The notes under the pieces were generated by a model. The model was not told the DNA's origin and made no database searches. It saw only the letters and a list, made by a program, of their open reading frames with translations. DNA of 64,000 nucleotides from Congeria kusceri. Taxonomy: Eukaryota; Mollusca; Bivalvia; Myida; Dreissenidae. A program made the translations under genes and the position numbers. The stretch is taken from NCBI GenBank assembly GCA_027627225.1, contig CM051034.1, positions 16,414,980 through 16,478,979 of the forward strand, read 5' to 3'. Positions 32,462-61,539 of this stretch are shown here, one piece after another; the first letter of the stretch is position 1; every line of letters begins with the position of its first letter.

Positions 32462-32627
32462 TATGGAAGGGTATATCCGCCAGTAAATGCTTCTAAATGA
32501 CAATTGCATATTGCCAAATTACAATTGCATGCTGCTAAATTACAATTGCATGTTGCTAAATGACAATTGCCTATTGCATTATCATATTCGTAATGGAACG
32601 ACATATCTATCCGCCAGTTAATGACAT
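32462..32627 (+). repeat. Left terminal inverted repeat with four 21-bp subterminal units
   Basis: The terminal 24 bp match the right end with one mismatch. Four exact-step 21-bp units (32,493, 32,514, 32,535 and 32,556) contain 'aaatgacaattgcat', matching the four units in the right arm. A further internal copy of the end motif, 'tatccgccagttaatgaca', lies at 32,609-32,627. Repeated subterminal motifs of this kind usually bind the transposase. Confidence 0.85.
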
Positions 32628-32885
32628 GGGCATGTTATTGACATGCATATGCGTTCTGCTACGTGATAACTGCATGCTTATTGATGCCAAGTTCTTGCTG
32701 CTTGCATGTAATTGACAAGTGCTTTCAGCCTTTTTGTTTGCTTACTGCAATATTGAAATGTTTATTCATACTATTCCTTGCTGCATTACTATGCGCATTT
32801 GACTTTGTTGTTGCTGATTGTCAGAAGCGATTAACTAACTAGTGGATCTTTCTACCATGTGAACGCATTATAACATTCCAGGGAA

Positions 32886-32926
32886 CCAATAAGAATTTGA
32901 CTTTCTAGCGCAAATTCCTATATACG
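32886..32926 (+). promoter_or_regulatory. Candidate core promoter of the integrase gene (CCAAT and TATA-like)
   Basis: CCAAT at 32,886-32,890 and TATATA at 32,919-32,924 lie about 30 bp apart and 105-145 bp before the proposed first coding ATG at 33,029. Position just inside the left end and spacing are sensible for a transposon promoter. In AT-rich DNA a TATA match alone is weak. Confidence 0.35.
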
Positions 32927-33039
32927 GGAGACAACTCGGAACAGATAAATCAGGGTTCGGTATTTTCCGTGGGCTAAACGGTGAGAGGGTCAAAACTTAC
33001 CCATTTACTTCCGTACTTTTGGGGGGAAATGACGTCGAG

Positions 33040-34428
33040 GTAAGTGATGTTTTTATTTTCAACAAACGGACAAATCGTTCGTTTTACGATAAAAAAAACG
33101 AACACTACTGGCTGACAAATGTACCGGGTGTGTGATGTTGGACAGGTTTAATTTTAACAGAAAAGGAGTATAATTATCGATGTTATTCCAGTGAATTTGA
33201 TCCCAACTAAAAAGTAATGTTTATTAGTCTAACTTCGTTGAATATCTTATTATGTAGACTAGGGCCCTTGTAAGGCTTCATCACCTCAGAAAAAATCGTT
33301 TTTATCATGCCAGTTTCTCTTAAATATAATTTTACCCCATGATTTTTCGTTGTCCTGTTTGAAATGTTTCCCAGAATTCATAAAAATAACACTTTTTTCC
33401 CCAAAATGAGGACAAAGAGTACCATATTGTACCAAAGAGTTAAAGAAATCCTTGCCTACATTTTAAGTGTCAACCTGTTTTAGATTTGGTCAGTTTGTAC
33501 CCTTATGATCACACATGCAGTTTGCTCAATTGGTTCCTGAGAGTTGGCTGATTCATAATTTAAATTTTAATGTTGTGTCTTGATTATGGTGTAGTGTTGG
33601 TGGGTAATGTACACATGATCGTTGTTTATCAGCCAGTGAAAACTTTATAATTCTGATGCGAGGCTTTTGAACCACTCAGGCTAGCACTCTCATGTTTAAT
33701 TTCTTTGAATCTGAACTCACAATAATGGTTGTTTATTGGCCTGTAATCAACAATAAATCAAAAATGTTTCTTAATATGGAATTCTTAGCACAACATGCAC
33801 CGACCTACCTGGATCAGCAAATAGCCAGCCTCATTGAAGTGATACATATCTCAGTTCGGCGGCCGGCTTTGGAGGCCCAGGTCAAACTATGGTGGTGTGG
33901 GAGGGGCAGAACACTTAATTTTTGAATCTGAGACAAGTATCCCTGTCAACAAGTGTGCCATATACTGATTTTTAGCTCGGCTTTTCGTAGAATACCCACC
34001 TTTGATCATTGACAGTATTTGCCGTTTATTGATATATAGAAACATAACAGTAACAGTAACAATTGATTCAAATATGAAAATTTGGTATTTTTAGAAAATT
34101 TGACCGTTGAACTTGTGTGACCTTGACTTCATTCAAAATGTGTGGGACTATATTATGTGTAATCATCTATCAATGAAAATCAATGCAATAATTGAATGTA
34201 AGAAATGAGTAAATTTTACTTTAAACTTTCTGACATTTACTTCATAAGGTCAACATGTAAGTGTAGATAGGTCTATTTATCCTAAATGAGTTATGTAACT
34301 AGAAATTAAGAACTTTTGTGACATAGACTTTATGGAAGATGTATGGGACTAAATAAAATTTAAATTAAAAGTGATCATATAAATTGCCATTGTTGCTTCA
34401 TAGCTTAGCTATATAATTTTCTTTTCAG
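33040..34428 (+). other. Integrase intron 1
   Basis: The intron runs from donor 'gag|gtaagtgat' to acceptor 'ttttcttttcag'. It contains a 77-codon frame (33,692-33,925; 'TYLDQQIASLIEVIHISVRR') that reads like protein but is unknown to me; it may be part of a nested element or a lost exon. A tandem (caguaaca)-like stretch lies near 34,046. Confidence 0.55.
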
Positions 34429-35105
34429 TGAGGAGGAGCAAGTACTGCAAATAAAGGATCTGTGTCATCGCAGGTTATTTTTTGTATATAGCCAATTGCT
34501 TAGAAAACGACAGGACTATGGATTTAGTGCCTCAGGTAGAAGAGATTTTAACTAATTTGTTGCAACTATCCAGTTTTGTATCGCTGGATGACAGCATGAT
34601 TTTAATTGAAGAAGCATTGCACACTTTACATAATAATCATGAAAATCCTGAACAATATACAGACAACCCCTTCCTAGAGGTGAATTCTACAAGAGAAAAA
34701 AGTATGAAATACCTAGGGAAACGCTCGAGATGTTGCTCTATAGTGGGATGAAGGTGAAACAGATTGCAGAAATGATTAATGTTAGGAAACGCACAGTTGA
34801 ACGGAGAATGCATTAACATCAACTGACCATTAATCAAATATATAGTCAAATATCCGATGAAGAACTTATGAATTGTCAAAATTATGTCATGAGTACCCTA
34901 ATGTTGGATACATTCAAAGCCTTTTGCAGACAAATGGATTTCGAATTCAGAAGTACAAAGTTAGAAAATGTGTTAATGATTGTGACCCTTTTGGTGTTAT
35001 GTTTAGAAGAGTATTTTTGTCAACCTCAAGAGTGTGTGGAAGAACTTAAAGCGTATCCGGTCCACAGGCACTATGGCATATTGATGGAAACCATAAGCTC
35101 ATTAG

Positions 35106-36126
35106 GTATGTTTCCTGACTGCATACTGTAGTAAAGCCAGGGACTAGTCAGGCCAACCTTTAACAGGTAAGTAGGTAGACCATTTTGTTTTGGAAAAATG
35201 AATGATTCATTTAGCATCAAAATATAGTGTATAACACAGACATTGCTTTAATAAAATAATCAAGTATCGGTTGATAAATGAGAGCATGACCATATAAATG
35301 AGAGCTTGCTTGCAATCATTTTAATTAGACAATGGATTCTAACAAACAGTCTGTTTGATATAAAACATGTTTAGAATTGAAATATAAAAAAAACAGTTCT
35401 ATTCTAGGAAGAAAAAAAAAATTTTGAGAAGGGACCATTTTGTCGGGTAGGTAGGCAATGGCAAACAAAGATAGTTTTAATTTTGGCCACATCCATGTTT
35501 TGTTTTAGTTAATTGTTATCCTCCTCCAAAGGCAAAGTGATCTGATTTGGCATTGTTGGGCAGTTTATCCACAACCTTTTTGTCATACCGTCAGTTTATC
35601 ATGCTTATTATCCATATCTTGGTACTTAATAGTCAGGATCTGTTGAAACTTGGTAGCAATGACTAAATGGATTTGTCTCTCAAAAGCTATATCATGGTAC
35701 ATGTACATGCACCGGTTGGTCAGATTCTGTTGTAACTCTGTGTGACTATATGCATTATTGGGCAAATAATGAACACCAACTGACATAACAATCAAAATCG
35801 AAACGCCCACATTATGGTGGTTTAGTGTTTATGGATGATCTTTTATATAAAATATTTTATAAATAAGCAGTTTTTAAACAATGATTTTAAATATGTTTCA
35901 TTCATTTTAGATAAAAGTATATGGTACTTTATAAGATTGTTTTTATTTATGTCACAATGTCTGTTGCAAGATTATATTTAATTTTAATTTTTTTTTCCCA
36001 AAACTTAGTATGCAGATTTCCTATAAGGAATGTTTTTCTTTCTAAAAAGTGTTCGTTTGCATTTCAGTTATTTCTTTAAATTAAAATTCTAGGACTGCCT
36101 TTCAAAATTAATTTGTTACATTTAAG
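35106..36126 (+). other. Integrase intron 2
   Basis: The intron runs from donor 'attag|gtatgt' to acceptor 'catttaag'. Joining the flanking exons restores the conserved LIR-WRLVIHGG stretch in frame, which confirms the splice sites. The interior has two direct 'accattttgt' + 'taggtagg' motifs (about 35,173 and 35,436), possibly a small nested repeat. Confidence 0.75.
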
Positions 36127-37489
36127 GTGGAGGTTGGTAATCCACGGAGGAATAGATGGGTATTCCAGATTACCCGTCTTCTTGAAAGTAAACAATAACA
36201 ATCGTGCCGACACTGTTCTTCGTTCAGACAAAGGTGGAGAAAATATCAAAGTTGCAGAATGTATACTGCAGCATCAAACAAGAGTATCCAGACCTTTTAT
36301 TGCTGGAAGATCTGTTCACAATCAGAGGTATAATCATGGGTCTCAATCTACTGATTTTGAGGTTATAATATAATGTCACTGGCCAATGCCGAAATCTGTG
36401 TTGAGCAGAATAATGTCACTTTTCTAATTAGAAATAGGAAGGTTCAAGTTTGCGTGCAAGTACCGGTTCATATCTTTGTAACTACTATAGATATATAACT
36501 GAAGCTTTTCAAAGTGGAATGAATAAGCGAGCGGGCTGTCCTGATAATATGATTGTTAATTAGTTTTATTTTCTTGTGTTTGGCATGATCAAAATAGTTT
36601 AGTATACAAGTTCAAATATATGTCCAACTGTACAATCTGATTAAAACTGATGTAATAGGTCAATGTGTCAATAGATAACAATTAGGGACCGTAAACTTAG
36701 GGAGGTTGGTCATGACAAATAGATAGCACAACTTTAGGGTTTAAAAATGCATAAATATTTGCAAATTATTTCATACATAATTATACGTAATACGTAATTT
36801 TTCCAGAGCAGCCATGTGATTGATCAAGTTTAAATTATTCACATTTATTTACAAAGATTCATTTTGTTAAAAATGATCCACTTTCTAAAGTGTTTAGGGC
36901 ATAAGTGATTTGATAGTGAAAGCTCTTTTTAATCACAATTATTATGAATGTTTTGCGATTATGGAGGGAGATATGGAATGGCTGTACAAGTCTATACTAC
37001 TCATTGTTCTACAAAATGGAAGAGGAGGGCATTTGGATATTTCCAGCGACCTACACACAATGCTGCTTGTTTGGTATTTTTACCCAGAATACAATCCCAC
37101 TTGGATAGGTTTGCAGGGGCTCTAAGGAGGAGACCACTAAGGACTGAAAACAACAGTACACCTCTCCAGTTATGGATATCTGGACCAAGAATTCATTTAT
37201 CTGTTTATGAACTGGTACTTTCAACAACATTTGTATACATAACTAATTGTACAAGAATAGTTCAACAAATTCTGTCTAAAGGTATAACCAATACATTATA
37301 TTTAAATTTTTTGTATATATTATGACATTTAACTTGATGTTACAATTACTATTTCGGTTGGTTTCAAATTGATTTTCTTATTGGAATCCAAACTAATAGC
37401 AGTTATGCCTTCACTGTGATTGTTAAGGTTGTTTGCGGGGGTGGGGGGGGGGGCAGGGGGCTGTATACAGGAGTGAGCTAGTCAGTCTT

Positions 37490-38600: not shown

Positions 38601-39142
38601 TTCTGATACCTTTAACTACTTTATACCTTATTTTTCAGCATCAACATTTCTGTAACGATAATTTAAATTTATGAACAAAGACAATTATAAAAATAGTAAA
38701 GAGACTGCCATTAAACAAGTTTTTTGCATGACACAGGCAAAATAATTACTCTTTGAAAAAAAGGATTACTTTCAGTATAATATGGATGCTTATGGTATTG
38801 ACTTCGAGCAGGATCAAGTATTGGTTCAACCAGAGACAGTGGTGGTTCCCGAAGGCATGCCTAATCCTGAAGAAGTGATGCAACAAATTCAACATATTCT
38901 TTATAAAGAATCTGATTGCTTTGGTGCCGACATATATAGGGAAGCTTTGGAGCATATGTATACAGTGAATCTTAATCTGTGACTGCTGTTCATTGAAAGT
39001 AAACTTGCATTAAAACATTTCTTGCTGTATTTTGAAATTATTTGGTGGAAATGTTCACAATCATAAGAGGATATCTATGTGGTGTATTTTAATGCCGCCA
39101 TAGAACAGCATATTAAATTCGATTTGATCGCCCTCCTGTTGG

Positions 39143-40440
39143 TTTTTTGAGCTCACATGAGCACGAAGTGCTCGGTGAGCTGTTGGTATAGGGGACCTCT
39201 GCGGCGTTGTCCGTATGCCGTTAACAATTTGGACCGTTATCGCGATAAAGACTACATTTTTTATTCAATCTTAACCTAATTTGCACAGTTTGTGTATGAC
39301 CATAAAATCTCGGATGGGATTGTTATTGGGTCAGATCACACCAGTAACACCAGAGTTATTGCCCCTTTTTATGCAAAAAAGTGCAAAAAAAAACCTTTTC
39401 CAACGTATAGACTTTATTTTTCATCCAATCTTAACCAAACTTTCACAGTTTGTGTATGACCATCAGATCTCAGCCAAAAATGGGCCAGACCATTTTTTCA
39501 AGCACCAGAGTTATTGCCCTTTGTTTACTAAAAAATATACAAAAATATACATTATTCAAGATAGAGACTTCATTTTCCATCCAATCTTCACCAATCTTGC
39601 ACAGATGGTCTATTATCTATTATCATTAGATTACAGTTGAAGTCGAATATAAGCAAGATCGGACCAGAGTTATTGCCCTTTGTTTGTGAAATAAATAAGC
39701 AAAAATGGACGTTATTCAGGATAGAGACTTCATTTTTCATCTTCACCAATTGTATACAGGTTGTCTATGAACGTATGACTACAGTTGAAGTCGAATAAAA
39801 GCATGATTGGGCCAGAAAAACCAGAGTTACTGCCCCTTGTGTTTAGAAAAAAACATCAACAAGTTATGAATGATTGGCTTGTACACTCTATTTGTGATTC
39901 AATGTTGACCAAACTTGCTCAGTTTGCGCATGACCATAAAAATTGATTGGTAAAATTTGATTTGCTACAGTTGCAAAACTTGCATGCAGTTATTTGTACT
40001 TGCAACATTGATGGTGTAGAGCCTGCATTAACATCATTTATCATCATTGGACAGAAAATTATGAAAGAAAAAGCAAAACTTTACCTTATAGAACAGCCAT
40101 CGCAATTATCGCATTGCAACTAGTTATCCAAACCTGTTTGCGAAAAAGACATGAAAATCTACTGTTTCTGCATTTTTCAGAATTGGCAATGCCTAAGTGA
40201 AAAAGAGTCAGGAAATAATATCAAGAAAATTAATTCGAGAACCATCAGCAAACAAACGCACATCCACTACCCAACTCATACAGTTAGCCCATTGCACTAA
40301 CCGATGTTTTAAATCAAAATTGATCCTATCCCCCTCTGCTTATTGTTCAGATACCTTAATTTTCAAACCTGTCACAACAGTATGGTCTTCATCTGTACCA
40401 GTTCTTAGGTGAGCGCTTTAGGCCATCATGGCCCTCTTGT
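39143..40440 (+). mobile_element. Helentron/pearl-like element A with five ~160-bp cores
   Basis: The 5' end is a strong hairpin, 'agctcacatgagcac' / 'gtgctcggtgagct', followed by 'ttggtataggggacc'. Then come five ~160-bp cores marked by 'cacagtttgtgtatgacca' variants (39,287, 39,446, 39,601, 39,757 and 39,920). The 3' end has 'ggtgagcg' and the hairpin 'ggccatcatggcc' before 'ctcttgttt'. Reverse copies lie at about 44,030-44,872 and 49,386-49,741. Subterminal hairpins, internal tandem cores and T-rich boundary suit a non-autonomous Helentron (HINE). No helicase gene is present. Confidence 0.75.
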
Positions 40441-41104: not shown

Positions 41105-41446
41105 CTTAGGCGTAAAAAAAATGTTAGTTTCAGGTTACCCGACCTTCCCTAAAAAAAAGGTCTTACCATTTTGTTGAGGTTGTAATATATATGTTTGACG
41201 TTATTAATTTTTTTAAAAATAAATAAATGTTTTTTTGGTTAAAATTAGTGTTCGTTTCTATAGTATCCACTTTAATACAATGGTTAATGCTATAACTGAT
41301 ATGTTTTGAATATTATTTCAGGTTTTGAATCTTCAAGTTGACAATTTCCTTAATAATAAAAAAAAATATTAAAAAAATCCCAACCTACCTACCCTAATTT
41401 TTGGGCCATGTATTTCTGAAACAAACATCATTTTGTTACGCCTTAG
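41105..41446. mobile_element. MITE, ~342 bp, nested in the giant transposon
   Basis: The left end 'cttaggcgtaaaaaaaatg' and the inverted right end 'ctaaggcgtaacaaaatg' form TIRs that continue into 'gtttcag'. Near the ends 'acccgaccttccct' and, inverted, 'agggtaggtaggtt' correspond. No ORF. No unambiguous TSD; a TA-type site is possible. Confidence 0.6.
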
Positions 41447-43398: not shown

Positions 43399-43658
43399 TT
43401 ATTCTCGCCCAAAACCATAGGACCCAACAATGATATTTTTCATCAGTTCTTCGAAAGAAGGATAACTATTGATCTCTGATAACTTGCTAAAATTAATGGA
43501 TGGAGCACAAGTGTTAATAGTGGTCAGCTGATCATTTTTGTGGTCAAATGTGATTATTCCCTCTGTTATGTTGCTTGGAAAAGCTGGACATCCAATAAGT
43601 GCTTGCATCAGGTTTCCCATGTTAAGCATCACATCAGCTGATGTACCAGTGTCCACAT
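43399..43658 (-). pseudogene. HECT C-lobe exon with catalytic cysteine
   Basis: The last exon holds 'FPSNITEGIITFDH', then INTCAPSI with the HECT active-site Cys, and ends in GSYGFGRE and a stop, close to the usual HECT C-terminus. The frame is open throughout. Exon 8 ends in phase 1, so this exon should begin two bases before GTG-GAC. The dinucleotide there (43,660-43,659) reads TG rather than AG, so the splice acceptor is mutated. Confidence 0.85.
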
Positions 43659-44029
43659 CAATGAGACAGTAATAAAATATAAATATATATATCTATAACT
43701 AATGGTAAAACAGAATTGTGGACTGTCATATATTTTTGCACTGTAAATATTTAAAAAAAACATTATATTACCGTTATCAAATAAGCTAAGGCAAGTTTTG
43801 CTAATGTGTTTTTCCCAATATTCTTTTCTGACCTATTTTCATTAAGTCATTTACAATTCTGGAAAATGCAGAAACTATAGATTTTGATGTCTTTTTGCAC
43901 ATAGTTTTGGAGAATGAGTTTAACATGATTATTGTGATGGCTGTACTGTTAGGTCAAGTTATTCCTTTCTTGATATTTATGTTTTATTTTTCTGTTCAAT
44001 GATTGCATGTACAGTCTGGTGTTTCGGGC

Positions 44030-44872
44030 CTGGTTCTGTTTATATTTGACTTCCGATGAATTTTTATGGTCACAAACAAACTGTGCAAGATAAGTGAAGA
44101 ATGGATGAAAATGAAGTCACTTTCCTGAATAAAAATGTCCATTTTTGTATTTTGTCCCAACAAATGGCAATAACTCTGGTATTTCTCGCCTGCTATTGCT
44201 TAAATTTGACTTGATGTATAATCTTATTGTCATAGACTAACTGTGAAAGAATGGTGAATATTGAAGGAAAAATGAAGTCTCCATCCTGAATAATGTCCAT
44301 TTTTGCATTTGTTTTTATAAATAAAGGGCAATAACTCCGGTATTTCTGGTCCAATCTTATTCATATTTGCCTTCACCTGTAATCATATGTTCATAGACAA
44401 ACTGTGCAAAACTGATGAAGACTGGATAAAAAACTAAGTTCTAGCCTGAATAATAACCATTTTTGTAATTTTATTCACAAACAAAGGACAATAACTCCAG
44501 TATGTGTAACACAATTTTGCCAATTTTTGGCTTCTTCTGAGATATGATGGTTTTACACAAACTTTGGAAGTTTGGTGAAGGTTCGATGGAAAATGAAGTC
44601 TATACGTTGCAAAAAGGCATATTTGCAATTTGTTGCATGAAAAAGGAGCAATAACTCAAGTTTTACTGGTGTGATCTGGCCTAATAACAAGCCCAACCGA
44701 GATGTTATGGTCATACACAAACTGTGCAAGTTTGGTTAAGATTGAATAAAAAATCTAGTCTTAGTCGCGTTATCGCGATAACGGTCCAAATTGTTGACAG
44801 CAGACGGACGCCGCCGGAGAGCTCCCCTATACCAATAGCTCACTGAGCACTAAGTGCTCAGGTGAGATAAAA
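44030..44872 (-). mobile_element. Helentron/pearl-like element B, inverted relative to A
   Basis: Read on the minus strand it starts with the hairpin 'ctcacctgagcacttagtgc' region, then 'ttggtataggggagc', 'caacaatttggaccgttatc' and about five ~160-bp cores ('gcacagtttgtgtatgacca' and variants at about 44,720, 44,558, 44,399, 44,238 and 44,080). It lacks the 3' hairpin end, so it is truncated. It lies in the last intron of the HECT gene. Confidence 0.75.
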
Positions 44873-45049
44873 AAAAAAGTTACTTTCAGAACTGCATGTA
44901 CACTTACAGTTTTATAAGAAGTGCACATTAGCTCTATACATTATCCTTTATTTACATCTAATACAAGGGTCTATCAGAATTAGGTCTGTTGGCAACATTT
45001 TGAGCCCATGGTCAAGAATGCTACAAATAACCAATACAGAATATCTGGT

Positions 45050-45485: not shown

Positions 45486-45705
45486 CATTGTGACAACGAA
45501 GTCCAGCTGACCATAAGCAGGCTTGACAATAACGCATGTTGTTTTTCTCAAGAATTTTAACTACAGCTTACTTAATGCTTAAGTAACAAACATATTGTAA
45601 CATTTCACGGTTTTGTGCTATTGGTGTAATAATACCATATTTGCATATTACACAAACAATATTGTTTCATATGTATCACTCAGTCACTGTTAAAAGTGAA
45701 CTTAC

Positions 45706-45887
45706 GTTCAATTTTCTTCAGGAACTGGTGGAAGTTGAAAATAACAACTTCTTCCTCCCCTTTTTCTGCGTGATCCTGAGAAAAAACAGGCTCGAAGAAC
45801 TCTTTGACCATAAGGATTTCAACAGGAATGTGCATCCCTGTTCAGGGTATTTCTGGAACATCCCTAGCAAGTTATGAAGTTTTAGAC
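45706..45887 (-). pseudogene. HECT domain middle exon, frameshifted
   Basis: The exon starts after 'attaaag' and reads 'GLKLHNLLGMFQKYP', then shifts frame near 45,810 and continues 'VKEFFEPVFSQDH' and 'IFNFHQFLKKIE' to donor GTAAGT. This is the HECT hinge and C-lobe entry. The plus-strand ORF at 45,641-45,877 is its antisense shadow. Confidence 0.75.
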
Positions 45888-46447
45888 CTTTAATGGATTT
45901 CATGCAATGTTTAATGTTAATGCAAAGTTATATTAAAATAATGTATCCATAACTATCTTGCCATGTGCATAACAAATGTATCAAGTTAAGAAATTATCTT
46001 TATCTATTTATCATGTTCAGACAAAAAAAGACATGTTTATACAGATAATATTTATTTCTTTTTAAACCTGAACTCAGTCATTGTTTGTAAATATATTTTA
46101 TAGTTTAAAAAATACATTTAAATATCAATGGTTTTCTACATTTTTTATGCACATCACAAGTAGGCATGTAAGATAATGTCAAACTAAATCTGCTTGTTTT
46201 GCAATTTTGTTTTAGCCATAACTTTTTTACTGTTTATGTAATTACTCCAAATTTTTAATACAGTAACATTATAACTTTGTTTCAAACCAAGCTGAAGCAA
46301 ACTCAATAAAATTGTATTTCTATTTCAATTAAATATAAACAGCACAGTACTGTTGGAGACAATCCTATAATTATATGAAGAAATATCACATTACAGGAAG
46401 AAATATCACACATATGCAAACATTAGACATAACATAGTTAAACAAAC

Positions 46448-46610
46448 CTTCCATGAACTGTAGTAAACTTGGAATAAATCGGTTGAACAAGTAATAATTT
46501 TTAATGGCGGAAACAGCATCCTTTCTGTTTTCTGTGGTGACAAGTTTCCTGAAACCACAGGCTTCGAGGAGATCGCCATATATCTCAACCAAATCGCAAT
46601 CAGCACAATC
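46448..46610 (-). pseudogene. HECT domain exon (N-lobe to hinge)
   Basis: Reads 'LVEIYGDLLEACGF', then 'SLLQFMEG' to donor GTTTGT. Joining to the next exon restores MEG-LKLHN across a phase-1 intron. No clear AG was found for the upstream border, so the 5' limit is approximate. Confidence 0.7.
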
Positions 46611-47227
46611 AGAAGTATGTGAATTTAAACGTCAAATTAATCATAAAACTGCTGACTGGTTAATATTAATGTGACAATAGGACAAATATGGCATTTTATC
46701 GATCACCTGGTTTAATGTGAAAAGCCATGTTACAAGAGCTGTTAGAAGTGCTTTCGATTATTCAACGTATTTCAGTTTTTACATATAATGTGCATTGCGT
46801 CGCCAACATTATATGAACATAAAATTTGAATCCCCTCAATAATTTGAGTAATGTGCACAAGCTTAAAATATTATGTCAAAATCAAAGTAACATTTGTTTG
46901 GCGCCTATTTTATCACCACTTGTCATTGAGATAGGTCAATATTAATCTTTGGGGTTAATTATTATGTATTTTAACTAATAAGCATTCCTAAATTTTACAA
47001 CAGCAATTGAAAACCGTTAATAAAACTAGATGTGTCCCAGACACAGATGCCGACCACGACAAGTTTTTGGACACAGACATTGACTTTTTTGTACCTTCAG
47101 ACTGAGAGACAAGGGACAATGCTCAATGCCTACCACTTTGTGGGGGGCACAGCTGTGTCATCTGGCCAAGAATTACAAGCAAAGTAACTGAAGTTGAATG
47201 CTTTTACATGACAGGTAATTATCTCTT

Positions 47228-47650
47228 CTATTGCTGAAACAGCATCCTCTCTTCTAATCTTATCAACGGGTATATTGGACAGTTCTCCATTTTTCTCGCT
47301 GACAATAACTCTACAACATGTTCCAAAAGGTTTCTAGGACCAGGATGGCCACTCAAAATACCCATAACTACCATTTGTCCCAATAAAAAGTAGTGCCTTT
47401 TGTCGAGAAGCTGGGCATCAAAACTAAAAACTCTGTGTTCGAAGACGGGTGATTTCTCATACAGAATAGTAAGGAAATATCTAGTCAGTCCTCCAACATC
47501 TAGACCTTCTTCACCTATGAAGGTGACACGGAGCTTCCTGTTCCATTCCTCATCTGGTGCCTGCTCTGTCTCCTCTATGGCTTGCTGCACAAGCATCCTT
47601 CGAACCACAGATATGTCCCAAACTTTCTTCTCATCTAGAATCTTGGATGA
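47228..47650 (-). pseudogene. HECT N-lobe exon
   Basis: The acceptor 'ttttaaaattttcag' opens a frame running SSKILDEKKVWDIS, then LRVTFIGEEGLDVGGLTR, 'SFDAQLLDKRHYFLLGQ' and ILSGHPGPRNLLEHV. These are hallmark N-lobe segments (GEEGxDxGGLTR; GQMVVMxxLSGHPGP). Near 47,265 a frameshift leads to a stop at 47,228. The other frame there continues 'DKIRREDAVSAIEEI'. The plus ORF at 47,400-47,654 is antisense. Confidence 0.85.
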
Positions 47651-48039
47651 CTGAAAATTTTAAAAAGACCTGCAAGAAATAACAGCAAGCACATTTATTA
47701 TTTACTATCTGAAGTATTTTTGCAGAAGACCACCATAGAAAACAAATCTGAAAAATATTTGCAAAATCCAACCAGTAACCAAAAGAATATATTTAGGCAT
47801 TTAAGGAAGAAGGTCCCATCCATCCCTGGGGGTAAAGTTATTCAATTTATTACCTATATTGAAAAGTATTTTGGTATAGGACCACCTAAGAAACATGTTA
47901 TTGTATATTTATTTCAAAATCCAACCAGTTGGTTCTGACAAAAAGTTTTTACTATCACCATTAAAACAAAAAGGCCCCGCCCCATGGCAGATATATTTGC
48001 AACAAAATCAAGGTTATTAAATAAATCTGAATTAACTAG

Positions 48040-48362: not shown

Positions 48363-48939
48363 TATTTTAAGTATTTTCGTAGAGGACCACCCAAGGAACA
48401 TTCCTGTGAAATTATCTCAAAATCCAACAAAAGGTTACATAAAATATTGTCAAAGATTTCAACCTAGCCAAACGAGGAAAAAGGCCACTTTTTATACATA
48501 TCAATCAAAATAAACATTGATCGAAAGTTAATTTTTAAAGTAAGCTGTAAACGGCCGACGCCAATAATGGGACAAATGACAACTGACCACAAGTGAGCTA
48601 ACTTAAGGTTGCTGTATGGTGACTAGAATAACCCCAGCCCAAACAATGACACTTCTGCATGGCAATGTGTACTACAAAAGGCCATATTTATGACATTATT
48701 TGTAGGGTAAATAAGACATGTGTCCAAAGGAGTTGCTTAGAGTCTTTTTTAAGTTATGCAAAAGTTGACAACATAAAAATCTGACAAAAGGAAGAACAGA
48801 CGTGACAAACACACATACCGACAAGGGCAAATCTATATGCCCCCAACCTGAACATCCTGCTCTTGAAAGAAAAGTAAGGTCGATGGACAGACAATCTGCT
48901 TTACATGAAACAAACATTTATAACAATGTTAGAACTTAC

Positions 48940-49071
48940 TCAAATGCATCTTTATGTGAAGTTTTCACTGATTGGCATACTTCATCTGACTGGCAACACA
49001 AATCCGCATGGGTTGGCAGCAGCTCCATCGAAACCAACTTTCCACACACGGGGCACACATCAAACTCTTTC
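48940..49071 (-). pseudogene. UBZ4-like zinc-finger exon (second finger)
   Basis: Acceptor 'gttttttcag' and donor 'GA|GTAAGT' bracket 132 bp. It reads KEFDVCPVCGKL ... HADLC, a C-x2-C-x11-H-x3-C pattern as in Rad18-type UBZ4 ubiquitin-binding fingers. The frame is open, entering with one base and leaving with two. Confidence 0.75.
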
Positions 49072-49385
49072 CTGAAAAAACTGACCATTAAAATTTGTAA
49101 TAAGAATCTTAAGCATTTGATTAAATATAACATTTCATGCATTTTCAAATTATTGTACAAAGTCAATACATTACCGTAATACATATTCAAAACCGACGTG
49201 AAAAATGTAAGTTTACTACATAAAAGAAGCAACAAGAGCCGTGTCAGGACAGCGCACTAGACTATTCATTTATCTAAGCAAGTTTCATATTGATTAGGCA
49301 AAAAATGACTTCCAGAGTGTAAAAAGCTTTTTCTTCAATTTGTCCTAGTGACCTAGGTTTGACCCACATGACACAGGTGAGCAAA

Positions 49386-50911: not shown

Positions 50912-50992
50912 ACAAGTAAAACCACATATTGGTGAAACTGAAGATACTTTTCTCCGCTTGGGTCCATCCTCAGCTGCAGAATCCACATTATC
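50912..50992 (-). pseudogene. Exon with NLS-like motif
   Basis: 81 bp (27 codons, phase 0) between 'acattccag' and 'tgt|gtatgt' reads DNVDSAAEDGPKRRKVSS. PKRRKV is a classical-type nuclear localisation signal in an acidic linker, which suggests nuclear action. Confidence 0.6.
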
Positions 50993-52102: not shown

Positions 52103-52198
52103 TATACCATGGCAAACCTCTACATGCTCCCTAAGCACACTAATTGGAACCACATCCCCACATGTCAAACATTCTTGGCAGGGCTCACTTAGCTCAGT
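52103..52198 (-). pseudogene. UBZ4-like zinc-finger exon (first finger)
   Basis: 96 bp (32 codons, phase 0) between 'gaatacctttcag' and donor GTAAGT. It contains CLTCGDVVPISVLREHVEVC, exactly C-x2-C-x11-H-x3-C, the spacing seen in the other finger. Intact. Confidence 0.75.
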
Positions 52199-52709
52199 CT
52201 GAAAGGTATTCAATAGCTCTTCAGCTTTGACCTCTAGCTGAGCTGAAACATTATTTCTTTGAATTTGCTTTAATAATGTTTTCTATACATGTATCCTAAT
52301 CCTAAATGTGAATATATATATGATTTATATATTATATATGCCCTGATGAGCTTTGTCGAAACGTGTTGGCTATTTTGTGATATATATTTATAATCCCAGT
52401 AACGTGGTATATATATACTAAGCCTAAATTAAATCTGACTAACTGACAGTAACCAATACCAAGACATGAATCCGGAAAACACATTTCCTATATAAAATGG
52501 ACATTTAACTTTAACAAAGAGCCATAACTGTGCAATTCCTGGACTAGCACACACGGAATGTGTTACTCACATCCACACTTGAGTGATCAATGATGGTGAT
52601 GACATACCAATATGTTCCATCCAAAAAACAGTAGCCTCCAGAGTGCTAACATGACAAATGCTGAATCAACGGACAAGTGATCAAAGACTACCGGGTACAA
52701 ATAACTAAC

Positions 52710-53020
52710 CCTCAGTTTCCCTGTGTCGAGATCCTTTTGGATGGGTCTTACATAACACATTGCTTGTCCTAAATTGCTGTCATTGCAAGGTAATCAGATG
52801 TGTACCCACCCACGGGCAACACTATGTTTTCAAGTACAATTCTGCTCCCAGGTGGCGTCCTCATTCGCTCATAGCCTCCACAGTCCCGTAGTTTCGGATA
52901 CGCTTCTTCTAAAGTTTTCTTAAAATCATTCTTATTTCCGCTTTTCACCAATGTAATTATTTTTTCACCCAGTCCAGCTTTGTGTAACCTATACTTTTCC
53001 TCACGGTTTGGGACATTCTC
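52710..53020 (-). pseudogene. Conserved N-terminal domain exon, 1-bp deletion
   Basis: Acceptor 'ttctggttcag'; reads 'HKAGLGEKIITL', 'AYPKLRDCGGYERMR' and 'DYLAMTAI', then after a one-base loss near 52,783 'GQAMCYVRPIQKDLD' to donor GTTAGT. The exon is 311 bp, one short of the 312 that would keep phase 0 at both ends. The function of this region is unknown to me; it is the usual N-terminal part of G2E3-like HECT proteins. Confidence 0.75.
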
Positions 53021-53824: not shown

Positions 53825-54021
53825 TTGATTACACTTTGGAATGATAGAAAACTTGTGAGTCCAGTAGCACACTGTAGTAGCCTCTGTATGCGTCCGTACT
53901 CCACGCCTTGGGACTGTCTTTCTGTAGGGCACACAAATGGCCCTGGCAGCATTAGCAGTGTTTATATATGTAGTCGTTGGTGCTGACGAGTTGCATGGGG
54001 CACTAGCGGTTGTTACTGGTA
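53825..54021 (-). pseudogene. N-terminal exon with WTHKF motif
   Basis: Acceptor 'cacatttaccag'; reads 'VTTASAPCNSSAPTTT', then VPYRKTVPRRGVRT and YWTHKFSIIPKCNQ to donor GTAGGT, joining in phase 0 to the next exon. Ala/Ser/Thr-rich and basic, probably disordered. Any earlier exon, start codon and promoter were not found in 54.0-61.4 kb. Confidence 0.6.
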
Positions 54022-54539
54022 CTGGTAAATGTGAAATTTAACAGGTCAGCAACCTACACAAATAATTCATTAAATGCGTATGAAATAAGACAGACTAGAA
54101 CAGGGGAGATACTACCCGCCCATTTACCTTTTGTGCATAATCTGACTAACTTCAGGTAAATTGGTACCTAGATATTGCTTCAACCCACAAACTACCTAAA
54201 TATGAAAGGAAGTAAATGTACACACACTTCAGAACGTGTGGGGGTATGAAACTCTATGTAGGGTATTTCCCATTAAAGTGATACAATTGCCATCAAACCA
54301 TACATTAACTAGAAATGTGTACACTGACACGGATGCCCCCACCTATGCAGCCATTTCTACATGGCGCCGCTTTTCTGTATGCAATAGCAGCATACAAATT
54401 ATTTTGCAAAAAGAGATTTGTCGTTTTATATTTTACTTTCTGCTAATGTATTCTCTTATACTGGGAAGTAATTTGGATATCAAAAAATAGTTATTGTATG
54501 ATCAAATTACTCTTGCAAAATGCCTTTTATCATTTTTGA

Positions 54540-54784
54540 ATTTTGCTTTGCACACTCATGCATCAAGGGAAGTAATTCACTAACTTCACAAGTCAGGTTG
54601 TGCATGCAACACTTCATCTGGTGATTGTGATCATTTCTGCCAATTTATCTGAAAATCCCTGCATGAATGACAATATTATGCTCTGGAAAATTATTTGACC
54701 TTTGACCTTGATTAATGACCTTGACCTTTCAGCCACAGACATGCCATCTCATAATGATTACCACTTCTGCCAAGTTATTTGAAA
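54540..54784. repeat. Pearl-type repeat, left part, split by LINE insertion
   Basis: 'atttgacctttgaccttg', 'ccacagacatgccatctca' and 'cacttctgccaagttatttg' match the repeats at 56.5-58.2 kb. The repeat is interrupted at 54,784 and resumes at 56,492. Confidence 0.75.
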
Positions 54785-56491
54785 CCAGCAAACCTTTGAT
54801 ATGCTTGGCCTAACATTTCATATTGATCTTAAAAAGATGTTGGAACTTAATTTTACGGAGAAATTATCAAAAGTTAAAACAGTATTAAAAAACTGGTCAA
54901 GAAGGATACTAACGCCTATTGGCCGAATACAAGTGATAAAAACAATAGCTCTGCCAATACTCAATCATCTGTTTGCTTCGCTTCCAAATCCGTCAAACAC
55001 AATATTAACTGAGTTAAATGACCTATTTTTCAACTTTGTTTGGAATGGTAGATCAAAAGTTAAAAAAAATGTTATCACAAAGGAATATGCTGAGGGAGGT
55101 CTAAATATGATAAATCTATGCTCTTTCATAAGCTCCTTAAAATGTTCTTGGATTCGTAGAATTGTCACCGGAAATGGTAAATGGATTAGTGTTGCACAAA
55201 CAATGATAGACTTTGATAAATTATATAACTGTGGTCTACATTATCCTGAGAACTTAATCAATAGAATACAAAACAATTTTTGGAAAGACACATTAAAATC
55301 CTTTGTTGAGTTCTGCAAAGCGGAACAATTAAATACAAAATACATACTACAAAATCCAATTTTTTATAATCCGAATATTATGATTGGTAATAAAAGTATA
55401 TTTTTCAAATCTTGGTTTGAAAAAGGTGTTCACTTTATTGGGGATTTGGTCAGCAACAAAGAATTACTTACATTTTATAGCTATGAAGACTTCTGTAAAT
55501 TGTATAATTTCAATCCAAACTACTTGCTTTATATAGGTATTGTTAATACTTTAACAAAATATTTAAAAACCTGTAGCTCGTTTGAATCTATTTTTTGTAA
55601 ACCGTTTGTTCCAATATCGTTACAGTCTATTTTAAAAAACACAAAAGGAACTCGGCCTATGTATGATGTATTAAAAAAGAATAAAATCTTACCAGTCTGT
55701 ATATCGAAATGGTCGACCACCTTTAACGATATCAATATAGAAGACTGGAAACATATTTTTGAAATGCCTTTTTGTATTACCAAAGATTCAAATTTACAGT
55801 GGTTACAATATAGAATTATACACAGAATTCTAGGTACCAATTCGTTCTTATTTAAAATCCATTACACAAATTCGGCCAACTGCTCTTTTTGTCAAAATAT
55901 ATGCGAAACAATTGAGCATATCTTTTGGGAATGTAATCATGTTCAAAGATTAATAACAGAACTATTTGGCCAATTTGAAAGTATCGCAGATCTTATTAAC
56001 CCGTCTTCTTTTATTTTGGGTCATAAAAATCAAAATGACCCTTTGAACTTAATTTTTCTTTTCACTAAAATGTTCATTTATAATTGTAAAATGAACAAAA
56101 CCATCCCTACATCAAATACGGCAAAGGCATATTTTGCTCTACACTATAATGTACTAAATGAAATAAATTACTTTAATACTTCAAGTGATAATAACAAATG
56201 GGGCATATTTTTACCTCTTTTTTGTTAGAACAAAAATACTGTGCTATTAGGTGACTGTTAATAATAAAGTTGTTGTTTGTAAAATAAAATGTTTATACAT
56301 ATATAGGTATTGGTTTTCGTGGAGCACTTGGTAGCATTACACATTATAAACGACATATGTATATACATGCATCTAATGTACTTTTGTACGGTGTGGAGGG
56401 GGATGCCCTCGACCCCCACACACCTATTGACGAGGAAAATAAAATATACGGAACAAACAAACAAACAAACAAAAAAAAAAAAAAAAAAAAA
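54785..56491 (+). mobile_element. 5'-truncated L1-like LINE with 13-bp TSD and poly-A
   Basis: It is flanked by 'aagttatttgaaa' at 54,772-54,784 and 56,492-56,504. Between them lie the C-terminal third of LINE ORF2, a 3' UTR with a GC hairpin (about 56,390-56,420: 'gtgtggaggggg' / 'cgacccccacac'), 'aataaaatatacgg', and a tail of (acaa)n plus about 20 A. This is a textbook target-primed insertion, truncated just after the RT core. The intact frame, perfect TSD and poly-A mark it as young and later than the giant transposon. Confidence 0.93.
54801..56228 (+). CDS. LINE ORF2 C-terminal fragment, open 475 codons
   Basis: The frame continues upstream to the insertion point, so the ATG at 54,801 is internal and not a natural start. 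It begins after the RT catalytic motifs with 'LGLTFHIDL', then 'KNWSRRILTPIGRIQVIK', 'FFNFVWNGRSKVKKN' and 'EYAEGGLNMINL'. It ends with the zinc-knuckle CSFCQNICETIEHIFWEC (C-x2-C-x8-H-x4-C) near 55,880-55,935. It is related to the dead copy at 6.0-9.4 kb but diverged. Without endonuclease and RT it cannot move itself. The minus-strand ORFs at 54,965 and 55,529 are shadows. Confidence 0.9.
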   Translation: MLGLTFHIDLKKMLELNFTEKLSKVKTVLKNWSRRILTPIGRIQVIKTIALPILNHLFASLPNPSNTILTELNDLFFNFVWNGRSKVKKNVITKEYAEGGLNMINLCSFISSLKCSWIRRIVTGNGKWISVAQTMIDFDKLYNCGLHYPENLINRIQNNFWKDTLKSFVEFCKAEQLNTKYILQNPIFYNPNIMIGNKSIFFKSWFEKGVHFIGDLVSNKELLTFYSYEDFCKLYNFNPNYLLYIGIVNTLTKYLKTCSSFESIFCKPFVPISLQSILKNTKGTRPMYDVLKKNKILPVCISKWSTTFNDINIEDWKHIFEMPFCITKDSNLQWLQYRIIHRILGTNSFLFKIHYTNSANCSFCQNICETIEHIFWECNHVQRLITELFGQFESIADLINPSSFILGHKNQNDPLNLIFLFTKMFIYNCKMNKTIPTSNTAKAYFALHYNVLNEINYFNTSSDNNKWGIFLPLFC

Positions 56492-56504
56492 AAGTTATTT
56501 GAAA

Positions 56505-57200
56505 TTGTTTCATGCCGCACACAATTATGCTCCAGAAATAATCCATGGACTTAATTCTTATGCTTGAGCTTTGACCTTAACGTGTGACCTTGACCGTGGA
56601 CCTAGTTTTTGCTGGCTACACATCGTCTTAAAATGGTTATCACTTCTGCCAAGTTATTTGAAAATCCTTCGATGCTGGACAGAGTTATTACCTGGACAAG
56701 AATCTTAACATATATACATATAGTTGACATTAAAGTGTGACCTTGACAGTGGACTTTTAACTTATGCTAAGTTGCTTGAAAATCCTTCCCTGCTGTAGAA
56801 CATTATGCTTCGGACAGGGTCTATGGCTTAAATTGTTATATTTGACCTTTGATCTTTTAGTGTGACCCTGACATTATACAAAGGGACCTGGTTCTTGCGC
56901 GCAACACACCGACACACCATGCTAAGCACTTCGGCCAAGTTAGTTTAAAATCCTTCCCTGCTGGACAAAATTATGCTTCAGACAGTATCTATGGCTTAAA
57001 TTCTTATATTTGACCACTGAGCTTTAAGTGTGACCATGACCCTGGACCTTGGGACCTGGTTCTTGCACGCGACACACCATCTCACCATGCTCAACACTTG
57101 TGCCAAGTTATTTGAAATTCCTTCCAATGGTAGACAAAACAAGATATGTTTGTAAAACATGTATGCCCCCCGACTTGCAGCCAAGTTGTGAATATATGCA
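56505..57200. repeat. Pearl-type cores, right part
   Basis: Repeated blocks are 'tgctggacaaaattatgctt', 'gacagtatctatggctt(a)', 'atatttgacc', 'gtgtgaccttgac', 'gggacctggttcttgc' and 'cacaccatctcaccatgct'. The starts near 56,505, 56,660, 56,790 and 56,950 give units of about 130-160 bp. Confidence 0.75.
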
Positions 57201-57901
57201 ATTGTTAAGAATTGTTTTAAATATGCCATCCCAAGCGAGGTCTCGATATATGGTATCTATGTATGAAGTTTCATTAAAATATCTCGATGCGTTCTTAAGT
57301 TATTGAGCGGAAACCGTTTTTCTATTTTTAGCAACGGTGACCTTGACCCCATCAACGCCATATGCAATCCCAAGCGATAACTTGATATAAGGTATATATG
57401 TATGAGGTTTAATTAAAATATCTTGATGCGTTCTCAAGTTATTGTGCTGAAACTGTTTTTCTATTTTTAGTAACGGCGACTTCGACCTTGACACCACCCG
57501 CCCAATAAGCAATCCCAAGTGAGGTATCAATATAAGGTATCTATGTATGAAGTTTCATTAAAATATCTCGAGGCGTTCTCAAGTTATTGAGCGGATACCG
57601 TTTTTCTATTTTTAGGAACGGTGACGTTGACCTTGACCCAACCCACCCCATTTGCGATCGCGAGCGAGGTCTCAATATAAAGTATCAATGTATGAAGTTT
57701 CATTAAAATATCTCGATGAGTTCTCAAGTTATTGAGCTGAAACCGTTTGTTTCTTTTAGTAACGGTGACCTTGACCTTGACCCCACCCACCCCATATGCA
57801 ATCCGAAGCGAGGTCTCGATATAAGGTATCTATGTATAAAGTTTCATTAAAATATCTCTATGCGTTCTCAAGTTAGCAAAAACAGTTTTTCTATTTTTAG
57901 C
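57200..57901. repeat. Five-unit tandem array, 139-145 bp
   Basis: 'atgaagtttcattaaaatat' recurs at 57,263, 57,402, 57,547, 57,692 and 57,836 (steps 139, 145, 145 and 144). Each unit also has 'tcaagttattgagcggaaac' and 'aacggtgaccttgacc'. The minus ORFs at 57,300-57,530 and 57,584-57,790 are repeat translations. Confidence 0.9.
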
Positions 57902-58112
57902 ATCGGTGACCTTGACCTTTGACCTGTTGACTTCAAAATTTACAGGGATCTTCCTTACCTCCCAAGTAACCAGCATACAAACGTTCATGATCGTAGGTCA
58001 AAGCGTCCTCTAGATATCGTGAGGAAACGAAATGGTCTACGGACAGACCGACCGACCGACTGACAATAGCAAAGCAATGTACCCCCACTTCTTTGAAGGG
58101 GGGCATAATTAT
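57902..58112. mobile_element. Pearl-type unit with GACC tail, sister of 1-594
   Basis: It matches the first 594 bp of the window: 'accttgacctttgacctg', 'accagcataca', 'gatcgtaggtcaaagcg', 'aaacgaaatggtctacggac', (GACC)n, then 'tacccccacttct' / 'gggggcata'. Confidence 0.85.
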
Positions 58113-58402
58113 GCTCTGGACAGGGTCTTTGGCTGAAATTCTTATATTTGACCTTTGACCTTTAAGTGTGACCTTGACCTTGGACATAGGGACCTGGTTC
58201 ATGCGCGCGACACACCGTCTCATTATGCTTACCATTACCATTATTTGAAAATCCTCAAATGCTGGACAAAGTTATTGTCCGGACAAGAATCCAAACATAC
58301 GTACATACGACACACGTACATACGTACGTACCCACGGACATGGTAAACTCTATATGCCCCCCCCCCCACCACCACCACCACCATTGATGGTGGGGGCATA
58401 TA
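58113..58402. repeat. Pearl-type unit with GTAC-rich tail and C/G hairpin end
   Basis: The core 'tttgacctttgacctttaag' leads through (acgtac)n at about 58,300-58,330 to 'tatatgcccccc' ... 'ggtgggggcatata', a strong terminal hairpin around a CCA triplet run. Confidence 0.8.
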
Positions 58403-59765
58403 ACAAATCATTAAATGAGCAGAAGACCATTTGAATACAATCATGACGGTTCAATTTTAACATGACTGACCATAACGGCCAACTTGACAGACTTAAATGA
58501 GTTGTTGTTTATGAGTGTTGTGGCCCAAATAGTATTCGAACGAATAAAAAAAATGAAAATGTATGCGCAACAATCACCAGTTACCACTATGTTTAATATT
58601 AAAATCAATCACAATGAAGTTTGTTTAAATTTACTGAACCACTGGGACTCGGCTGTCATGATCTGATCTATCACCCGCATTCTAATTACGACATTTGTAA
58701 AACCCCGACATGTTTAAAGTTCAGGCCTATATTTTACAACTGTCTAAGCTCAGCAAGCTCGTTTTTTGGACCTTGCATCTAGTATGATTACTTTGGATTT
58801 TTTCATCCTGGTGTTAAAAACAAAATGACTTATGAATGTTGCTAACTAACAAGTTTTCAACTTTTCATCAATGTGTTTTAACAATGATAGAAGCTCTTCA
58901 TAAAGTCAATAATTATCCGGCCCAAAACCAGGTCACTACAGCCGCACTTTACACATGTAATAATTTTTGTTCAATGTTTTCCTGAGCGTAAACGTGTGTC
59001 TGCAATTATTTACTAAGGATAGGTTTTTTTTTATAAAAACAGTTTGCAAACTAGTAGAAAAGGGTGTGTAGTACCAAACAAACAAAAACGACAATTTATG
59101 CTTTCTTTGTCACATCATTGTCACTGACTGTGGAAATTGATATGGTTATTGAACAAACAAGTTTCTGCTGACAATTACCCGGCACTTCCTATTAAATAAC
59201 GACAATGAACACAATTATATCGGATTGCAATACTTTTATACAGTAACATGCATTTATACATTACAAAATAAACATATGAAGGTTGTGGAATAATGTTTTT
59301 ACATGAACAAGTGACATTTGCTTGCAGACAAGTAGATCTTTGGAATGAACTTGTCCGTGGACAAGCGAATAATTTTGATATTTCCACACCTCTGATGAAT
59401 AGAGTATTATACAAACTAGATTTCATTTTGTTCATAGAATAGAAAGTTCTGGAGATGTATTCATACAGTGGCTATAAGTGAGGGTTGAGTAAAATTGCAA
59501 CAAATAAAATTAAACTTAATACTAGATCGAAGCTTTGCAAATGGCGGTCTGTACATAAATGTAATGAATTAATACGCAAGTATAAATCCAAATTAAATGC
59601 ACATTGCGGGTAAATTTCGGCACATTTAAAAGCAGTTTTCTACTGTTCCCACTCACGGGTCAGAATATCTGATCCTTTCCAAAAGCAAAATATAACTAAT
59701 TATTCCCAATTCTTACACAAAACCCAAATCCTAGTTAAAATAGCGAGAATATCAACTAAAATAAA
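58403..59765. other. No recognised feature inside the giant transposon's right arm
   Basis: AT-rich. The frames at 58,484-58,666 (+) and 59,175-59,435 (-) are not recognised. A first exon or promoter of the HECT gene could lie here, but none is visible. Confidence 0.4.
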
Positions 59766-59773
59766 GTTATTAA

Positions 59774-60738
59774 TAGGGGTGTAACGATATATATGTCTCA
59801 TATCGCGATATATTGCAATATTTGGAAATATATCGCGATATATACCGAGATATTCTGCCTAATTTAAATGCACAGTTTCTCTTCCGATATTTGTAAAATT
59901 ACGTAGTTTTGTTACAGTCTATTTGAATAGTCCAGAAAAATACAAATAGCATCAAACATTGCAGAAATCGCTTCTAGTGATCATCTTACCGACAAAAAAA
60001 CAACAACAAGAAAAACAACACTGAAATTGGCGTAATAATAACGGTTTGGTAAATTATATCGTCTATGCCTTCTGAGTAAGTCAGCATGTAATTTATTGTA
60101 TATAATATAGACAATTATGTTCTCATCAGGCGTATTTGAAGACAGAAATGATAAAATGCCTTTCGTAAATAAGTGACTGTTTTAGACGAATAGAAGTCAT
60201 AATTGTCATAAAACTATAATTATTGGCGAATATATGTTTTGAACTGGATGCCATGGCCTGCGGATTTAAACTGTTCGTTCAGTGTTTGAACTTTAATTCA
60301 CGAATACATGGTAATGTTATATATCTAGCAAACAAGGCAAGAAAAAAACATTCAGCACTCCGGCAGCCATTTGCATGTCAAATATTAAAAAAAGAAATAA
60401 GCTAAAAAGTTAGAATTTTAAAGACATCTCAATTAAATGCAATTGTTTTTTTTAAAGTAGCAACCGCAAATTTGTTTCAATATTTTTTTTTCATATTCTC
60501 ATGTACGTGTTTTGTATGTTTTATTCGTGTATTAAATAGATCTATATTGTATTAACTGTCCGAAACTCGGTTTATTTTTCAATAATGAACTGATAATTCA
60601 TCCAGATTTTAACAGTACAAACGCTCAAGTCGTACAAAACAACATTGGTGCAGATTACACTCTCCAAAATGAACAAATCTTTGATATATTACCGCGAGAT
60701 GTGATACCGCGATATACCGGTATATTGTTACACCCCTA
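59774..60738. mobile_element. Non-autonomous hAT-type transposon, 965 bp, 8-bp TSD
   Basis: Both ends read TAGGGGTGTAAC(G/A)ATATA inward, flanked by GTTATTAA at 59,766-59,773 and 60,739-60,746. The subterminal regions are rich in 'atatcgcgatata' and 'accgcgatatacc'. 'AGGGGTGTAAC' ends with an 8-bp TSD are characteristic of hAT elements. The 60-codon ORF at 60,223-60,405 is not a transposase. Nested in the giant transposon, hence younger. Confidence 0.9.
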
Positions 60739-60746
60739 GTTATTAA

Positions 60747-61415
60747 AAACAAGTCAAATCAATATTTAACAAAGATATCCCATGGGAGATAATAAGTCAT
60801 ATCAAAACTATTAACTATCCGAATCGCATACCTCGACCGAAATGTGCAGTGTAGTACCAGTAGTGAAAACTGTTCACTATATGATACTTGATTAGGGTAT
60901 AACAATACAGCACGAGTTTTACTCAATTAGCCATCTAAAATGCATTACCTGCTTAATATAGCAGAGGATTACTTGTAGTAGTACTAGTGATCTTGGTTGA
61001 ACTTCAGGCACGGTTGGCGCGCGTCGTACAAATTTGCCTTGTATTTTTTGGCTGAATCACCGTTCATATTACGGACACTGCCGTAAATTCTGGTTCCCGG
61101 TTACATATGAATGACATATTACAAATTGTCAAGTCGCATTTGAATAACTTCTTGTTGCTAAGTGCTTGCTGGTTTTGCCTTGCCAAACTTTCAATCGTGT
61201 AATGCCTAACTATCATTAGACGAATTCTATGTTTAATCAAATTCACATAGTAAAATGTACAAAGCAATATGAACTTGTTCGCAAAAACACTTAGCGATGA
61301 CACAGAGAGGATGCATTTGTCATTTACACGCAAGAATATGTGATTTAATTTCATTAACCGATAGAAAGCAGCACTAGAACGCATGGAAGTTGCAGTTAGT
61401 TAGTAACGAATTCCA
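60747..61415. other. Right arm of the giant transposon, unassigned
   Basis: The longest frame is 106 codons on minus (61,064-61,384; begins MRSSAAFYRLMKLNHIF), unknown, and it lies immediately inside the right terminal repeat. Its position would suit an element-encoded gene, but no domain is visible. Confidence 0.35.
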
Positions 61416-61539
61416 CAGTGCAATAAGCAATTATCATTTAGCAACATGTAATTGTCATTTAGCAACATGTAATTGTCATTTATCAACATGTAATTGTCAT
61501 TTAGAAGCATGATTGTACTGGCGGATAAACCCTTCCATA
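61416..61539 (-). repeat. Right terminal inverted repeat with four 21-bp subterminal units
   Basis: Units start at 61,421, 61,442, 61,463 and 61,484 with exact 21-bp step ('caacatgtaattgtcattta' type), the inverse of the left arm units. The outermost bases are 'ggcggataaacccttccata'. The number and spacing of units match the left arm. Confidence 0.85.

Follow-up and report, generated by a model that had tools for sequence, protein, structure and literature searches.

A decayed 29-kb transposon of Congeria kusceri, likely of the IS3EU superfamily, and the predicted HECT ubiquitin ligase carried by its family

What is a gene for a HECT-type ubiquitin ligase doing tail to tail with an integrase gene, between the inverted ends of an apparent DNA transposon? 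This question is raised by a 64,000-nucleotide stretch of the genome of the bivalve Congeria kusceri (GenBank assembly GCA_027627225.1, contig CM051034.1, positions 16,414,980 to 16,478,979), referred to here as the window and numbered from its first letter. A preliminary description had proposed inverted ends of ~125 bp, perfect 6-bp direct repeats TTTATC outside them and, between them, one DDE integrase gene and one HECT gene in convergent orientation, and each of these features is present. It is quite probable, in our judgement, that the locus is a decayed 29-kb transposon, likely of the IS3EU type, in whose family a second gene, convergent with that of the integrase, encodes a predicted UBZ-like/HECT ligase that likely serves the element.

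The inverted ends, TATGG...CCATA, can be aligned for ~130 bp (one alignment covers 105 nt at 85%); the first letters of the element, from 32462, are TATGGAAGGG, and its last letters, to 61539, are CCCTTCCATA. The TTTATC repeats adjoin these ends as a target-site duplication (TSD). The flank is itself tandemly duplicated in the window, such that 32117-32312 matches 32318-32461 plus the sequence from 61546 onward, with no gap at the junction. Thus, an unfilled insertion site survives within the window, and from it the duplication is seen to be six bases long. The boundaries, including the two terminal inverted repeats (TIRs), are as follows:

32462-61539, whole element, 29,078 bp, decayed copy
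32456-32461, strand not applicable, left TSD, TTTATC
32462-32591, + strand, left TIR, starting with TATGG, 21-bp tandem units at 32493-32577
61406-61539, - strand, right TIR, ending with CCATA, 21-bp tandem units at 61429-61511
61540-61545, strand not applicable, right TSD, TTTATC
32117-32312, + strand, tandem copy of the flank with the unfilled insertion site

The integrase gene comprises four exon-match blocks on the + strand, between 34596 and 38979:

34596-35109, + strand, exon 1, helix-turn-helix region to the first catalytic D; frame change, stops
36122-36328, + strand, exon 2, second catalytic D; internal deletion
36956-37211, + strand, exon 3; catalytic E lost, frame changes
38773-38979, + strand, C-terminal exon; exon match

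When the pieces are joined with X at the breaks, the protein matches the Pfam family rva_4 (PF24764) with an E value of 1.4e-51. Because of its stops, frame changes, internal deletion and lost catalytic glutamate, the window copy is dead. Its best database relative is LOC128550671 of Mercenaria mercenaria (71% identity), and fish integrases are present among the relatives listed; a single scan against viral contigs gave no match. The relative P0014 matches rva_4 at 1e-77 as well as rve and helix-turn-helix families, and the zinc-binding integrase family (HHCC) is not among the 19 families listed for it.

The exon matches of the HECT gene run on the - strand from 54001 down to 43402 and comprise two C2HC motifs and a HECT domain:

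53831-54001, - strand, N-terminal exon; exon match
52692-53020, - strand, exon with the conserved N-terminal region; frame change near 52784
52112-52201, - strand, first UBZ-like C2HC motif; exon match
50912-50992, - strand, linker exon; exon match
48939-49073, - strand, second UBZ-like C2HC motif; exon match
47211-47668, - strand, HECT N-lobe; one stop, one frame change
46443-46613, - strand, HECT domain; exon match
45704-45894, - strand, HECT domain, broken; exon match
43402-43662, - strand, HECT C-lobe with the NTC motif; putative catalytic cysteine assigned by motif

This gene, too, is broken by stops and frame changes in the window. A HECT fold with an N- and a C-lobe was recognised by the family profile together with fold comparison; neither isolated nor pieced-together HECT segments reach the Pfam cut-off. 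The NTC motif, which is invariant in all 13 of the 13 HECT relatives compared and is also found in the window copy and in a complete copy on contig C8 (see below), marks the putative catalytic cysteine of the C-lobe. The motif C-x2-C...H-x3-C occurs twice in the window gene, the family profile matches the UBZ finger of RAD18 (5vf0) at E 0.0011, and Pfam zf_UBZ scores under the cut-off in the relative P0001 (20.2 vs 25.6 bits). Among the 7,995 candidates scored in an alignment-based protein search, 15 proteins were listed, three unnamed and 12 named, the latter all from bivalves. The best database relative is LOC128550670 of M. mercenaria (69% identity), and the HECT protein is 54-71% identical to 'G2E3-like' proteins of Mya arenaria over 59-99% of its length. 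To judge from contigs of equal size and consecutive locus numbers, LOC128550670 and LOC128550671, the relatives of the two genes, are very probably neighbours in Mercenaria. As a separate observation, two oppositely oriented arrays with units of ~160 bp (39143-39950 and 44053-44875), ~5 kb from each other, lie close to the 3' ends of the element's two genes.

The two genes recur together elsewhere in the 1.549-Gb host genome. Close copies of both were found at C8, C5 and C2 with two Mercenaria proteins as queries (101 of 802 integrase candidates and 61 of 123 HECT candidates scored). The genome-wide search for ends used the left end only and gave 41 matches from the best 40 of 606 candidates. 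The preliminary description had suggested looking for further pairs of ends that enclose both genes and are flanked by a 6-bp TSD, and two such copies were found:

C8:9363765-9382631, 18,867 bp, both ends, both genes, TSD ATTTTT
C5:89976722-89997478, 20,757 bp, both ends, both genes, TSD TAAAAC

The ends of these two copies are nearly alike (127/129 and 147/149 bases). The aligned exons of the C8 copy are without stops and keep the contexts of D, D and E and the NTC motif. An alignment of the window with C8 (E 1e-20) consists mainly of the exons and of ~0.5-0.6 kb at each end, together with one exon block that runs ~190 bp on and one internal repeat. At C2, a perfect 244-base inverted repeat, with its arms ~26 kb apart (C2:52973780-52974030 and C2:52999770-53000090), stands where the ends would be expected; perhaps it belongs to another element that surrounds or replaces them.

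The same arrangement was found in a second, younger lineage, whose integrases are 48-49% identical to the query and have HECT-gene matches ~12 kb off. A 3.1-kb piece of this lineage recurs end to end or nearly so at 30 places with 95-100% identity (40 of 15,400 candidates scored); among them are the query itself and eight places on two small contigs, C459 and C741. Its inverted ends, as seen in the C13 copy, are ~1 kb long and composed of 21-bp units, and in the C5 and C14 copies they read TATGGAAC..TTCCATA. Two of its copies likewise have both ends, both genes and exact duplications, although the catalytic half of the HECT gene is weakly seen in this lineage:

C5:48149042-48170186, 21,145 bp, both ends, both genes, exact TSD CAAGAC
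C14:41039908-41060983, 21,076 bp, both ends, both genes, exact TSD GACATG

The HECT gene of the C13 copy includes a clear exon with the N-terminal region, the UBZ-like finger and the start of the HECT domain (profile E 3.9e-21). Complete copies thus measure 19-29 kb, and because they are independent and have different duplications, chance is excluded as the cause of the arrangement. Some further observations concern the young lineage itself. A weak SAM-like exon (L035:8064-8411, minus strand; E 0.0094, under the cut-off) precedes its HECT gene; it differs from the N-terminal domain of the window's family, and it matched no solved structure. A glutaredoxin match in an exon of the same gene (E 0.001) was also under the cut-off and was given no weight. 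On contigs C459 and C741, young elements stand in tandem, ~20 kb apart, and the array on C459 reverses direction midway.

How regular is the pairing across the genome? The 61 HECT matches merge into 40 loci, 31 of which have a convergent integrase within 25 kb, compared with ~0.03 expected under random placement. The outcomes that would have spoken against the preliminary description did not arise: integrase and HECT copies are not consistently apart. Outside C459 and C741, every one of the 26 pairs at distances up to 25 kb is convergent; when these two contigs are included, there are 31 convergent pairs and six others, all six on the tandem contigs. The paired integrases are either 80% or 45-49% identical to the query and, given these identities, probably belong to several lineages. 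When the window is compared with C8, the integrase has a dN/dS (the ratio of nonsynonymous to synonymous substitution rates) of 0.229 over 388 codons, and the HECT gene one of 0.236 over 494 codons. The HECT gene is thus constrained about as tightly as the transposase, though the window copy is now dead.

The preliminary description regarded both gene families as cargo of one mobile element that would explain their high copy numbers. Both genes indeed lie inside the element, but 'cargo' undersells the HECT gene, which recurs with divergent integrases and is under purifying selection. The copy number of the HECT gene is better explained by one element than that of the integrase, because a HECT partner was detected for only 31 of the 102 integrase places (101 matches plus that of the window).

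Several results weigh against the reading given at the outset. The 71 other integrase places are without a detected HECT partner; they may have no HECT gene, or one too distant for the query. Conversely, 9/40 HECT loci are without a convergent integrase in the scored lists. For two of these, C156 and C741:15686, sequence of the kind found ahead of the integrase is present at a distance of 12-13 kb, and both probably have integrase partners that were not scored. Shortened left-end copies are common among those fetched (20 copies other than the window's, ~first 10 kb of each; three share one flank, leaving 18 sites). Nine of the 20 are shorter than 10 kb (1.8 to 8.8 kb), and an exact 6-bp duplication accompanies only three of these nine, one of them being AAAAAA. 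Integrase matches appear in the first ~10 kb of three of the 20 and a HECT match in none; the HECT gene of a full-length copy would lie beyond the ~10 kb fetched. One integrase-bearing copy, on C4, retains approximately the left 8 kb only, as judged from 30 kb of fetched sequence. At C2, the ends are absent where they were predicted. In the genome search, the matches in the C8 copy are longer and show one stop in each of two exon matches and three stops in the N-terminal HECT match, which could possibly fall in an intron; in addition, zinc-finger exons were not found in C8, and UBZ-like zinc fingers are not universal in the family. In the young lineage, three of five copies have no exact duplication, which is absent or untestable: the C7 copy is without one, one end of the C9 copy is truncated, and the right end of the C13 copy is altered and departs from the form TAYGG..CCRTA. 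The catalytic half of the young HECT gene is represented by weak colinear exon matches, one with a TC motif. Finally, the AlphaFold model is of moderate quality (mean pLDDT, the predicted local distance difference test score, 56).

Within this context, the alternative that survives best is passenger capture, in which an IS3EU element took up a host G2E3-like HECT gene without any benefit to itself. Transposons do capture genes, and some fungal IS3EU elements carry other genes, according to the available text of PMC12730594; the frequency of shortened copies and the 71 integrase places without a detected HECT partner would also fit such a history. However, a mere passenger would not be expected to recur in an unchanging convergent arrangement with integrases that share 80% and 45-49% identity with one query, to be as constrained as the transposase, or to be retained in a young lineage of many near-identical copies. 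We therefore regard passenger capture as unlikely. The ligase looks like a retained component rather than chance cargo, and the presence of the same gene pair inside complete copies elsewhere in the genome suggests that it likely helps the element to move or survive.

To which group does the element belong? IS3EU elements have been described as having TA..TA termini, 6-bp duplications and an integrase-like transposase (available text of PMC10045372 and PMC12730594). By its ends, duplication length and integrase, the present element likely fits this superfamily. The window copy has TATGG..CCATA for TAYGG..CCRTA, and this form is also found in the C8 and C5 copies and in the young C5 and C14 copies, all of which have exact 6-bp duplications; the DDE transposase is integrase-like and without the HHCC zinc domain. 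For the 'IS3-like' of the preliminary description (DDE integrase, short TIRs, 6-bp TSD), IS3EU is the better name. In the available text of PMC12730594, some fungal IS3EU elements carry alpha-kinase and TET/JBP genes, and in the TET/JBP-carrying families the alpha-kinase gene is oriented opposite to the transposase. A second, oppositely oriented enzyme gene is thus a further likeness, the difference being that here it encodes a HECT ubiquitin ligase; the words 'ubiquitin' and 'HECT' do not occur in the text of PMC12730594. No report of HECT in IS3EU was found in the literature searched, and an unpublished or catalogue-only (Repbase) record is possible. GingerRoot elements, compared by description only, share 6-bp duplications, mostly TA..TA termini and an integrase-related transposase, whereas no accessory ligase is mentioned in the available description (PMC10045372). 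Transposable elements with an OTU-like protease (Helentron) or ubiquitination-linked domains (Burro) are known from the available text of PMC6431247; these, however, are other element classes with other domains, and 'HECT' does not occur in that review of giant transposons.

A second alternative is that the locus is a Polinton/Maverick or another virus-like giant element in which only the integrase and the ligase are still recognisable. Polintons/Mavericks are large, and their genes encode DNA polymerase B, a packaging ATPase, a protease and a capsid protein. However, six-frame Pfam scans of the C8 copy (E 0.01) matched nothing beyond the integrase core and families of the helix-turn-helix or sigma type, and no polymerase, ATPase, protease or capsid family, the reach of these scans being limited because they missed the HECT exons too. 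A DDE integrase and 6-bp duplications are indeed held in common (available text of PMC10045372), but the TA..TA ends are those of IS3EU, and, within the limited reach of the scans, we consider this alternative very improbable and reject it. Least probable of all is chance nesting, i.e., that a multi-copy HECT gene landed in or beside an old transposon, as could happen in a region full of nested repeats with a decayed copy: it is rejected in view of the pairing of 31/40 HECT loci in one orientation where ~0.03 would be expected, and of the further complete copies with the same layout and different duplications.

The HECT protein should also be distinguished from G2E3 proper. Vertebrate G2E3 has PHD fingers, and PHD/RING fingers precede its HECT domain. 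In contrast, no PHD/RING family was found up to E 0.1 in five of the HECT relatives (P0001, P0002, P0007, P0010 and P0011). Bivalve G2E3-like HECT proteins resemble the present one in sequence identity; the present one differs from them in its UBZ-like fingers and its location in a transposon. In Cottus fish, a G2E3-like sequence is listed among unclassified repeats (available text of PMC5638112).

If the element is indeed an IS3EU transposon with a ligase of its own, how might the two proteins work together? Judging from the family, transposition would be by cut-and-paste: the integrase would bind the ~130-bp ends, with the 21-bp tandem units as sites, excise the element and join it to staggered cuts 6 bp apart. 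The predicted ligase would, by means of its HECT cysteine, ubiquitinate a host protein or the transposition complex, and RAD18-like UBZ fingers, where present, could bring it to chromatin that already carries ubiquitin or to damaged DNA. The retention of the enzyme, with RAD18-like fingers in some copies, suggests that it ubiquitinates proteins at chromatin or at sites of repair to the element's advantage. We favour the view that it would render the host's chromatin or repair permissive to transposition, rather than turn over the transposase.

In this genome, two gene families that are annotated as separate multi-copy genes are parts of one mobile element. This finding is a specific example of selection maintaining a predicted ubiquitin ligase in a DNA transposon of a eukaryote, and it makes the use of the host ubiquitin system by a transposon testable. 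HECT gene 'expansions' in such genomes may be transposon copies. The HECT gene described here, together with the alpha-kinase and TET/JBP genes of some fungal IS3EU, suggests that a recurrent feature of this superfamily is the pairing of the transposase with an enzyme that acts on the host and is encoded in the opposite orientation; the orientation of the alpha-kinase gene in the TET/JBP-carrying fungal families would mean that such an extra gene recurs in distant members. Tentatively, and with slightly less than even confidence, one may go further and envisage a whole class of animal DNA transposons that consist of an integrase and their own HECT ligase, which enables the element to move by disarming or recruiting chromatin or repair proteins of the host; bivalve and fish 'integrase core' and 'G2E3-like' genes would then largely be the two halves of such elements.

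Other repeats occur in and around the window copy. One lies inside the element and is not the element's own:

54783-56225, + strand, nested fragment of a long interspersed nuclear element (LINE); zf-RVT match just under the cut-off

Outside the element, LINE-type remains at 7030-7455 match a reverse transcriptase family. Tandem arrays with units of 145 bp and 168 bp occupy 56505-58307, towards the right of the element.

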